Part shown: in pieces, positions 18,010 to 22,800 of the stretch
How positions within the stretch are numbered: the first letter of the stretch is position 1
How the letters are laid out: each line of letters begins with the position of its first letter
Virus record (IMG/VR): IMGVR_UViG_3300014720_000001
Span: 1-64,000 of that record
DNA length: 64,000 bases
Direction: 5' to 3' (one strand)
DNA from: a virus
Made by a program: the position numbers and the translations under genes
Notes under the pieces: generated by a model
Databases searched by the model: none
Told to the model about the DNA's origin: nothing
The model's input: the letters and a program-made list of their open reading frames with translations, nothing else

Positions 18010-21000
18010 TTAGTTATCTAATATGGCCCGAATGGTCGCGCGTAAATTTGTGTTTGTGTTCAATTGCGAGATCAACTCGTTTAAAAACGCAGCTGATTTA
18101 ACAATTTCAGCAACGTTAAGCGTCACGGCACCATTGATGCTTGTGTTGTTTGCCGTGATAGTTCCGCTGCCGAGCGCCGTCGGTGTAAATGTAATTATAC
18201 CGCCAGCGGGTATTACTCCGGTTGCGCCTTGTAATCCGGTAGCGCCTGTTGCGCCCGTGTTTCCGCAGGGCCCGGTTGCGCCAACTGGACCACTCGGGCC
18301 TGTTGCGCCGTTCGAGCCTATGGCGCCTGTAGCCCCGCGTGGGCCTGTTGCGCCGCCGGAGCCGGCTTGTCCGGTCGCGCCAGTTGCGCCGCGAGGGCCC
18401 TGCGCGCCCTGCGGACCTTGCGGCCCCATAGGCCCAACAACGCCTGTTGCGCCGGTTGGACCTGCTTGCCCTGTTTGGCCGGCGACACCAGCAGGGCCGG
18501 CTGGGCCAACTGGGCCGGTCACTCCGGTCGCGCCGCGATCGCCCTTTGCGCCTTGAGCGCCCTGCGCGCCCTGCGGACCTGCGGGTCCGACTGAACCCTG
18601 CAAGCCGGATGGGCCAGTAAGTCCACGCGGGCCTGTTGCGCCGGCGGTACCTGTTGCACCTTGCGGACCAGTCGCGCCTGTGGGCCCACGCGGGCCGGTC
18701 GAGCCAACAACGCCTGTTGCCCCCTGCGGACCTGCAGCTCCGTTTTGTCCAGCGGGCCCGGCTGGGCCGGTTGCACCAGTGGCGCCTGTTACGCCGGTTG
18801 CGCCAAATTGTCCGGTAGGGCCGGTCATGCCCTTGGCGCCTGTAGCGCCTGTGGGGCCTGTAATTCCTGTCGGGCCGCGGGCGCCTGACGGGCCGGTAAA
18901 ACCGCGGTCTCCCTTATCGCCCTTTGCGCCGACCGGACCCGTAGGGCCCATCGGACCAGTTACACCGGTAACACCCACCGGACCTTGCGGGCCTGTTTGT
19001 CCCGGGTCGCCTGTGCAACCTGTGGGACCCATGTCGCCTTGCGGGCCGATGATACTTAAACCGGGTAAGCCCTGAAGCCCCTGATCTCCCTTGTCGCCTT
19101 TCTCGCCCTTGTCGCCTTTGTCGCCTTTTAAACCCTGATCACCTTGCATGCCTTGCATGCCCATGAACCCAGCTGGACCGCGGGGACCGGGAACACCTTG
19201 AATTCCTTGATCGCCCTTGTCTCCTTTATCGCCCTTGTCGCCTTTTTCACCGGTTTCGCCGGTGTCGCCCGTGTCGCCTTTGTCGCCTTTTTCGCCGGCG
19301 TCTCCGGTCGGACCAGCGGGTCCTTCGGGGCCGGTTGGTCCTTGTTCGCACGAGCCGCCGCCGCCACCGCCGCCGCTACCACCACCGCTACTAGACGTGG
19401 GGCATTCGGTTGTATTGAGTTCGATGTTGACCGTGAGGTGTCCGCTTTCAACGTCAACTTCAATACTGCCTGAACCGACTCCCGACGGCGTGATATTAAC
19501 GGTGCCGCTTGTGATACCTTTCGGAATATATGCGTAACCGCCGACCTGATACGCGCACTTTGCGGTTTCAGTTATTTCGACGTAGATTTCTGGTGTGCCG
19601 CCACCATAGGGGCGCATTTCCAAACTGCTGCCGGTGAACTCAGGATAACACGCCGCCGGCACACCGATGTTGATATAGAGATCGTATATGCAGACGCCGG
19701 GTTCGTCGCCGGTTGTTCCGCCAACTTGAGACGGCGTAACTTGACCCGTGCCGTATGGGTAATCAGACTCTGTAACATCAACATTAAGAGTGATTTGCGG
19801 GCACGGCGGCGGTGGGCATTTTGGAATCCAGATGTACGGCGTTAATTTGAATTCGCACAGATCTAGTTGCTCGACGAGAATTTCTGCGCGCGGTTCAATG
19901 CCGCACCCAGTCAGCGCGATCCCTTCGCCGCCTTGTATTTTTGGAATACACGGCTTCGGTAACCCGAGGTACAGCGGCAAAACAACGTCGCACGTGTATC
20001 CGGGATCGAAGTTAAACAGCGGGCCGCCCGCGAACGCGTACGGATCTGCTTGCGGCGGAAGCACGCGCAAATCGACGACCATTGAAACGGTCGTACAGGG
20101 CGGGCGCGGAATCTGAATAAACAACTCTATATCGATCTCGTAGCAACACACAGGCGGATTATTTGTGCCACGTTTTTCGTCGTACTCGGCGCACTTCTGA
20201 ATGTCGAACTTAATTTTTTGTGGGACATCGTAGCCCACTTCCGACTGCAGGTTTTTGACGCGAAATTGCGTGCACGGCGGGCGCGGAGTTGGAATATCGA
20301 TATGGATGTCAAACAAAAAGTTGCATGAACCCGGATCGTTGCATGTTGCCGGCGTCGCAACAGCAATCAGGTTAAAGAAGCTCGGTGTGTTGCTGAGGCG
20401 ACCAGCCGGGCCGTCTTGATAATGGCTGTTGACAGTCAAAAACCGCGAGAGTGTTGGACAGCGCGGCCGGGGAACTGGAACAACAATTTCTATTTCAATA
20501 TCAAAATCGCAGCGCTCTGGTTGGTCGCAGCCGCTCGCCGGCGTCACAACTTTAGTAATTTCAAAGCGCGACTGCCCAGCTACGCAATCCGTACCGGCAA
20601 ATCCAGTCTTGACCGTAAACAACTTTTTCGCGATATCGATACATGGCGGCGGCGGAATAGGTACGACAATTTCCAGATCGATGTCAAAATCGCATTGATC
20701 TGGCGTGTCGCAGTTACCCGGAGTAATACGCGGTGTAATTTCAAAGCGATTAGATTTTCCTTGCACGCATGTCGAATCGCTGAGTCCCGTCGATACTTCA
20801 AACGTATTGATATTAATGCTGGGGCATGGCGGCTTTGGAATTGGCACATCGATGGTCAGCTCGATGTTGAATTCGCACTGGTCAGGATTGTTGCAGTCGC
20901 CCGGAATACGCGTTGACGTAATTTCAAATTTAGAACCACCCGACGACGAGCAGGTAATGTCGTCATAATGAACTTTGACGTCGAACGCTGGAGAGTTAAT

Positions 21001-22800
21001 AACTGGGCACGGCGTTCTCGGAATTGGTACGACGATTTCAAGATCTACATTGAAATCGCACTGGCCCGGGTTGTTGCAGTCGCCGGGTGTGTGGCTCGTG
21101 CTGATCTCAAACTTCGAGCCTGATTGCACGCACGGCGAATCGCTAAAGCCTGTTTTGACGTCAAATGTGCGCGCGCGTATGAGCGGGCAGGGCGTGCGCG
21201 GAATTGGCACGTCAATGGTGAGTTCGATGTCAAACTCGCACTGGCCCGGGTTGTTGCAGTCGCCGGGTGTGTGTTTTGTCGTGACCGCAAACTTCGACCC
21301 GGTGAGGCCGCAGCTTTGATCGCGATATGCGGTGTTTACCGTTAATACTGGCGAATTGATAATCGGGCACGGTGTACGCGGAATTGGGATGTTGATTTCT
21401 AACTCAACGTCAAATGTGCACTGGTCCGGGCTGTCGCAGTCGCCGGGGGTGTGATTTGGCGTGATCAAAAACTTCGACGGCGATTCGGCGCAATTGATTT
21501 GATCGTTGTAGCCGGTTGTGACGCTAAACGTTGGCGAATTAATGACCGGGCAGGGCGTACGTGGAATCGGAATAACGATCTCTAACTCGACGTCAAACTC
21601 GCACTGGCCCGGGTTGTTGCAGTCGCCGGGTGTGTGCTTTGTTTTGATTTCAAACTTGTTGTCACCGGTAATGCAAGTACCGGTAGACGAGTCCGCATAA
21701 CCAGATGTGACGCTGAACGTAGGCGAATTGATGATGGGGCACGGCGTACGCGGGATGGGTACGACGATTTCCAGCTCGACATTGAATTCGCACTGGTCCG
21801 GATTGTTGCAGTCGCCCGGAGTGTGGTTTGTGGTGATCTCAAACCGATTGCTGCCGGTAATACAGTTACCGTCGTTGTACCCAGACACGACACTAAACGA
21901 CGCGGCGTTAATTGCCGGGCACGGCGTACGCGGAATGGGTACAACAATTTCAAGATCAACGTCAAACTCACAGCGCCCCGGGTCGTTGCAGTCGCCGGCA
22001 GCGTAGCTTGGCGTGATGCTGAAAAAGTTTTGTTTGTTCAGCAGGCAGTTGGCGTCAGAGAAACCGCTATCAACTGAGAACGTGTTGAGGTTAATAACCG
22101 GGCAGGGCGTACGCGGAATCGGGATTGCGATCTCAAGCTCAACTTCAAAACGACACTGATCGGCAGTGTCGCAATCGCCGGTTGTAATGACGGGGTTGAT
22201 TGCAAATTTGTTTTGCTTATTTACCATGCACGGCGCGTCGGAATATCCGGAGTAGACGCCGAAATCTGTGATTACAATTTGCGGGCACGGTGTTTTGGGC
22301 ACCGGAATTTGAAGATCCAGATCGATGACAAATTCGCATTGGTCAGGCGTGTTACAGTCACCCGGCGTGATAATCGGCGTGATACGAATTTCGCTGCGGG
22401 GTGTAATGCAGTCCTGATAGCCGACCTCCAAACCAAACTCGCCCGCGGTAATAGCGGGGCAGGGCGTCCGCGGAATTGGGACATTGATATCGAGCGTGAC
22501 GTCGTAGCGGCACGGATCGACGTCGCGGCGTTCGATTTTCAGTTCGTTTTTCGCCGGCGGGCAGGCGTCAACGTCGTCGCCGCTACTTTCAAAACTGACA
22601 TCGATGCTCGTGAGCGCCGAGAACTCCGGGCATAACGGCCCGACCTCGGTCGGCGGTTCTCTCGGAATAATCGGCGTCTGGCAGCCGTAGATCGGCGGCG
22701 GCAGGGGCGCGATATCGCACACCGACGAAATGAAATCAAAGTCAGCCTTCGGAACTGCTTCGATCGGACACTGCGAATCTTTGAAAAGATTTTCAGACAT
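18010..22800 (-). CDS. Giant fibre with ~13 cysteine repeats and a collagen-like stalk
   Basis: 1596 residues with clear modular order. Residues ~1-110 contain scattered Cys. Residues ~111-900 hold about 13 tandem repeats of ~60-65 residues. The core is GDCxxPxQCEFxVELEIxIP, followed by IPRTPCPxI and then F-x-V-x-S-G-Y-x-D. Then come degenerate copies and Pro/Gly-rich segments to ~1130. Residues ~1150-1530 are G-X-Y repeats. The end is a short beta region and the helix [19 protein letters not shown]. The two-Cys core could form disulphides. The whole is best read as a long tail or head fibre. I do not recognise the Cys repeat as a known family. Confidence 0.85.
18210..19345 (-). repeat. Collagen-like G-X-Y coding repeats of the giant fibre
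   Basis: About 125 consecutive G-X-Y triplets are encoded here, with GDKGDK-type repeats at the upstream end and GPTGAT or GPQGAQ types later. At DNA level the nine-base unit with GGNCCN and its reverse produce many shadow open frames on the plus strand, rich in Pro, Ala and Val, which should not be annotated. Confidence 0.9.
20100..22470 (-). repeat. ~13 tandem cysteine-bearing protein repeats
   Basis: Repeats of ~190 bases. Each encodes a GDC-x3-P-x-QC-x-F block, a beta strand pattern ending in IPIPRTPCP, then a F-x-V-x-S-G-Y-x-D segment with one further Cys. Copies around the middle are most alike, whereas the first copy and the last three differ more. DNA copies differ enough that long identical stretches are rare. 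Confidence 0.85.

Follow-up and report, generated by a model that had tools for sequence, protein, structure and literature searches.

The gene at positions 18010-22800 (minus strand) of the window, by which we mean the whole 64,000-nucleotide stretch analysed here, itself part of a virus contig of 204,621 bases, encodes a protein of 1596 amino acids that is probably a long virion fibre. It would combine some 18 three-stranded β modules, each closed by a disulphide between its first and fourth cysteines (C1-C4) and stapled to its neighbour by a disulphide that joins C2 of one repeat (i) to C3 of the following one (i+1), with a collagen helix. From N- to C-terminus the protein consists of a leader, a cysteine array, a glycine-rich linker, a collagen Gly-X-Y rod and a C-terminal tail, all parts of the gene lying on the minus strand. 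The leader (residues 1-54; 22639..22800) contains three conserved cysteines (11, 28 and 40) within the motif NLFKxSxCPI...FDFI..VC.I..PPPIYGC, which is recognisable in nearly all homologues that retain their N-terminus, and is likely to be a virion docking or capping segment. Behind the array lie a β-rich segment and Gly/Ser linker, delineated from the sequence (residues 1096-1150; 19351..19515), and the collagen-like rod (residues 1154-1530; 18211..19341; Pfam Collagen, 1.9e-52), whose Gly-X-Y triplets span residues 1154-1249 and 1252-1530 with a single interruption at 1250-1251. The collagen triple-helix repeat PF01391 scores 175.3 bits against a cut-off of 27.2, in the C-terminal half of the protein only, and two cysteines, Cys1262 and Cys1512, sit inside the rod. 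The tail (residues 1531-1596, with the stop codon; 18010..18210) has a similar counterpart at the end of most of the complete homologues shown and is a probable trimerisation or tip segment. Judging from the collagen part and from the trimeric phage collagen EPclA (PMC3368898), the fibre protein is presumed to be a homotrimer.

The core of the array is formed by 13 contiguous repeats, R1-R13 (residues 107-894; 20119..22482), of 58-63 residues each (mean about 60.6). Each of them scores 44-94 bits with the family profile and a period of 180/189 bp is detected in the DNA by TRF, so that the repeats are far beyond chance. The first-pass annotation, which had placed about 13 cysteine repeats at 20100-22470, was thus correct as to the core but set the ends of the array too tightly: the core is preceded by a first, shorter unit, R0 (residues 55-106; 22483..22638), with C1, C2 and C4 but without C3, and followed up to about residue 1095 by four degenerate units, R14-R17 (residues 895-1095; 19516..20118), which have C1...C4 and an extra pair 966/995 and of which R16 is also picked up by the family profile, giving about 18 units in all. 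In its canonical form, moreover, the repeat has not two cysteines but four, C1 (TPCP), C2 (GYxDxxC), C3 (GDC) and C4 (QC), spaced by about 17-19, 18-19 and 6 residues and then by 17 to the next repeat, in the consensus [VI]-P-I-P-R-x-P-C1-P-x-I-N-x-x-x-F-x-V-x-x-G-Y-x-D-x-x-C2 ... F-x-I-T ... P-G-D-C3-N-x-P-D-x-C4-x-F-D-x-E-L-E-I. The SGY-D motif, previously read as the end of the repeat, is the end of its first β-strand. R1-R11 carry C1 to C4, R12 is without C2, and R13 is without C2 and C3 but has an extra cysteine pair, 870/886. Cysteine makes up 6.1% of residues 1-1095 and 2.8% of the products of the genes just upstream (22802-28778), as compared to 0.88% in window proteins of 28.8-64 kb and 1.27% in all other ORFs, and is therefore concentrated in the fibre module and not in sheath and tube.

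The main evidence on the pairing of these cysteines comes from the way in which they vary. C1 and C4 are cysteines in 274 of 274 distinct repeats, whereas C2 is present in 78.5% and C3 in 88%; the invariant pair is thus TPCP and QC and not the "strict" GDC...QC pair described at first, whose GDC is lost in about 12%. C2 of one repeat and C3 of the next are jointly present or jointly absent in 287 of 291 adjacent pairs (98.6%, phi 0.94), as opposed to a phi of 0.55 for C2 and C3 within a repeat and of 0.15 for C3(i)/C2(i+1), and over lags of -2 to +2 the C2/C3 agreement is 72, 75, 84, 98.6 and 88%. When the labels were permuted within runs 20,000 times, a mean of 231 and a maximum of 249 of the 291 pairs agreed, and no permutation reached 287. 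Units without both C1 and C4, which are partial profile matches, were set aside from this table. The four exceptions, which were interpreted after they had been seen, fall into two kinds: the first units of L009 and L028 do have C2, in a longer loop overlooked by the parser, and L034 and L039 are without C3 but have gained a cysteine in that junction's linker (DLQLCIPVP and DLNLCVPVP). Internal double losses occur in two separate homologues (686/751 in L042 and 558/623 in L046). Extra cysteines likewise vary in pairs, namely 870/886 and 854/859 in R13, the latter only in L027 and L036, and C2 with the cysteine of IPKC in the last unit. The 291-pair counts are inflated by common descent and reflect few independent events; restricted to the core array, the tally is 222 intact pairs, 2 joint losses and 2 compensated C3 losses (Fisher p 2.4e-4). 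A stricter automatic cysteine count (279 of 292 parity-concordant) misassigned the extra pair of R13 and was given up in favour of the simpler table.

On this pattern of variation, each repeat would have two disulphides that are independent of each other, C1-C4 and the staple C2(i)-C3(i+1). Successive staples overlap along the chain, and there is therefore no choice of repeat boundary that would turn them into intra-repeat bonds. The C1-C4 bond, with both partners invariant and hence no covariation behind it, we infer from geometry and arithmetic. The number of cysteines left over at the array ends is ambiguous between C1(i)-C4(i) and C4(i)-C1(i+1); the former is preferred because the strand order A, B, C puts C1 and C4 at one end of the repeat, whereas C4(i) and C1(i+1) are a whole strand apart. 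The strand order is that of an AlphaFold2 (AF2) model built from 121 family sequences, which predicts three strands per repeat (about 13, 9 and 14 residues) and places C2 at the opposite end from C1, C3 and C4, with a mean pLDDT of 77, up from 56 in an earlier model that used closer homologues only, and a pTM of 0.35. Structure prediction, as suggested at first pass, has accordingly yielded credible local strands but not a credible packing of the repeats, since at a pTM of only 0.35 no inter-repeat geometry is established.

In the proposed map 64 of the 67 cysteines are paired, 18 C1-C4 bonds, 12 staples and 2 extra pairs using up all 64 array cysteines because the first unit is without C3 and the last stapled unit without C2; the leader cysteines 11, 28 and 40 are the three left without an assigned partner. 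The proposed C1-C4 bonds are 57-97, 114-155, 172-216, 233-277, 294-337, 354-400, 417-461, 478-521 and 538-581 in R0-R8 and 598-642, 659-703, 720-764, 781-826, 843-885, 902-937, 951-982, 1000-1037 and 1051-1082 in R9-R17. The staples would be 80-149, 131-210, 191-271, 252-331, 313-394, 376-455, 437-515, 497-575, 557-636, 617-697, 678-758 and 739-820, and the extra bonds 870-886 and 966-995.

But could the same cysteines be arranged or used differently? Conventional bonding within the repeat, C1-C2 and C3-C4, would include the GDC...QC pair of the first-pass annotation and is suggested by the short distances, C3 and C4 being only 6 residues apart and C1 and C2 17-19 in most repeats. It fits the variation worse, as C1 and C4 are never lost and yet C2 is lost in 21% and C3 in 12% of repeats, as C2 and C3 of the same repeat agree in 84% against the 98.6% of C2(i)/C3(i+1), and as thiols in R0, R12 and R13 would be left unpaired; we regard it as very improbable. 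Of the early alternative "disulphides or metal binding", the covariation supports the disulphides and not the metal. A Cys4 metal site, for instance for structural zinc, held by C1-C4 of each repeat or junction would account for the four cysteines of the canonical repeat, all of which meet at one junction in the proposed topology, but where C2 and C3 are gone, as in the C1-C4-only arrays of L041, L043, L045 and L051, C1 and C4 remain invariant and would provide just two ligands. In addition, the C2 and C3 columns are filled mainly by G, A, T, P or gaps and rarely by His, the cysteines change in twos and not in fours, and all four Cys or His are not kept in every repeat as in a Cys4 zinc repeat. 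A metal site is for these reasons unlikely.

Equally doubtful as intra-repeat bonding is the idea that the cysteines stay reduced in the virion as packing residues and covary through inter-repeat packing contacts. This would agree with assembly in the reducing cytoplasm, but packing should allow single substitutions by Ala, Val or Ser, whereas the pairs are all-or-none and compensating cysteines arise at the same junction. A variant that is compatible with our preferred reading, and that we consider a serious though not the favoured possibility, is that staples and/or C1-C4 bonds join different chains of the trimer and make the fibre one covalent three-chain rope. Covariation is blind to whether a bond lies within or between chains, the low pTM of the single-chain AF2 model is as expected for inter-chain contacts, and conserved cysteines in the collagen rod (GPTGC, GPCGN) also suit such bonds. 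Moreover, bonds Cys84-102 and Cys127-144 of the trimeric short tail fibre of phage Milano are listed as inter-subunit (PMC10811340). Then again, an intra-chain rod accounts for the sequence equally well.

Is the repeat new? The array has no significant match in Pfam, PHROGs, the PDB (by sequence and by fold) or 50,697 cultured-phage records. A profile search against phage proteins, which had been proposed at first pass, was run and found no PHROG or cultured-phage family matching the array; queries with the window array and with two divergent ones brought up no relative among the cultured phages, tblastn of the array against the 50,697 records gave no match at E<=1, and the 121-sequence repeat profile found none among PDB sequences at E<=10. 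One-per-species bacterial and archaeal genomes gave no relative with two alignments, a weak negative since both were narrow pattern scans. The best PDB fold match, obtained with the single-chain model of pTM 0.35 as query, had an E of 0.03 and a TM below 0.2, and a match in a viral structure library (8.5e-4) was judged meaningless at a TM of 0.12. The best 25 of 43 PHROG matches of the whole protein fall in the collagen part, and matches of single array members to short profiles (phrog_8574 at 2e-7, and others) were dismissed, as about 20 residues aligned and no stretch passed alone. A Pfam scan of 75 members gave weak matches to CRAM_rpt, CLIP, EGF-like and CCCH zinc-finger families, with a best E of 2.6e-4 and, for the window member, nothing below E 0.2; what these have in common with the array is a Cys-rich composition only, with no shared cysteine framework shown. 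The description as a possible new fibre domain was therefore apt in that a new fibre repeat is a fair name for it: within the open PMC text, the array is a new repeat family in a known kind of structure, the collagen phage fibre and the disulphide-stabilised virion. For this tandem fibre module, evolution supplies an unusual disulphide map that can be tested, in which a daisy chain would run from repeat to repeat in place of intra-repeat closure; the array, as a modular stalk of variable length, would be of use in protein engineering.

Both known elements have precedents. EPclA and EPclB of E. coli O157:H7 prophages are phage collagen-like fibre proteins, and recombinant EPclA is trimeric with a triple-helical domain (PMC3368898). 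They share the collagen Gly-X-Y rod with the present protein but have a stalk of PfN, coiled coil and PfC and not a Cys-repeat array (PMC3368898). That disulphides were considered odd for a protein assembled in a reducing cytoplasm was an overstatement: the virion of phage Milano, trimeric short tail fibre included, is extensively disulphide cross-linked although assembled in bacteria, loses its robustness under DTT, and contracts in vitro only when a reducing agent is added to guanidine (PMC10811340, PMC10491603). The short tail fibre gp31 of Milano, an Agrobacterium phage, resembles our protein as the trimeric fibre of a contractile phage with tandem small β domains, each with a disulphide (residues 82-120 with Cys84-Cys102 and 127-160 with Cys127-Cys144), whose folds are described as absent from the PDB; it differs in having two such beads of about 35-40 residues rather than about 18 units, and the text consulted mentions no collagen rod and describes no inter-repeat daisy chain (PMC10811340). 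A sequence relationship to the bead domain was not found in the PDB (E<=10) or the 50,697 records (E<=1), either of which may lack Milano, and for its fold, stacked β-hairpins of three subunits, the comparison is the above fold search from the single-chain model. Disulphide armouring as known from Milano-type phages would have a further instance here, in a different group of large uncultured phages.

We suggest that the protein serves as a fibre of an uncultured contractile-tailed phage of about 200 kb. With strands parallel to the rod axis, C2 of each repeat would come together with C1, C3 and C4 of the next at a single junction; beyond the stapled stretch R0-R12 would lie simpler units, then a flexible linker and the collagen triple helix. 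As a tough, stiff spacer with a distal host-binding part, the fibre would most likely be ordered as docking leader, stapled β rod, linker, collagen rod and distal tail. Virion location and oxidised state are predictions from sequence, and with them comes the question at what stage the bonds would form and which factor makes them. The bonds may form during or after release from the cell, either after lysis or in an oxidising compartment. We mention as a speculation, and an improbable one, that staples and perhaps C1-C4 bonds are inter-chain, the stalk being a covalent, redox-switchable three-chain rope whose disulphides are set and reset outside the cytoplasm by an exported thioredoxin-like protein of the phage with a WCKYC site. 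L013 (2513-2842, plus strand; genome positions 106513-106842) encodes a 109-residue protein of this kind (PF00085, E 4e-13), which has the WCKYC site and an apparent signal peptide. Of 13 related contigs, 8 have thioredoxin-like matches that exceed the Pfam cut-off, with none in L041, L047, L051 and L023, and the sulfhydryl oxidase Evr1/Alr was not found in the phage genome.

In IMG/VR contigs, several of them near 200 kb, 34 loci have relatives of the repeat, which make up a non-redundant family of about 28 proteins, the window's included, all from uncultured phage contigs. The 1075-residue product of 49220-52447 has tail-sheath PHROG matches and, by tblastn, matches large phages of Vibrio and Salmonella at about 26%, which makes the phage contractile-tailed and remote from cultured phages; its DNA polymerase, too, shares only about 26% identity with the best matches among cultured phages. 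In nearly all loci that reach far enough, the fibre gene is preceded by the upstream genes (28792-27837-26223-24489-23713-22802) in an unchanged order. The nearest of them (22802..23713, minus strand; 303 residues) adjoins the fibre gene in every homologous locus that does so, and its product is a candidate attachment partner. Successive fibre-module proteins at 22802-28778 are cysteine-enriched (2.8%) and have an RYPL/RYPF-like motif in common at the N-terminus, which may serve all of them as a docking element. Downstream, a collagen-only protein of 321 residues (17043..18008, minus strand) has the Cys-bearing collagen end GATGPCGN in common with the fibre and is a possible partner chain or paralogue.

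The number of profile-detected repeats in the family ranges from about 5 to 18. Outer units correspond by position across homologues, central units are often as close to their siblings as to their counterparts, and compared with L002 and L005 there is one additional unit in the window protein; units have therefore been gained and lost in the middle of the array. In L009 (7344-14903) and L010 two repeats carry large insertions in the strand A-B loop, one with about 14 cysteines, which are possible side-mounted binding domains. The arrays of L041 and L045 finish in minimal units of about 46 residues with C1 and C4 only; in L041 (7200-10088), L043 and L045 such units are nearly identical, which suggests very recent tandem expansion. 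The L041 and L043 proteins are without a long collagen part, and the non-collagen stretches, hundreds of residues long, that separate collagen segments in L008, L009 and L042 would suit exchangeable binding parts. Finally, two long open frames on the plus strand of the window, 49556-52066 (836 residues), which is antisense to the sheath-like gene, and 56643-58160 (505 residues), lie antisense to other large ORFs and are probably compositional.
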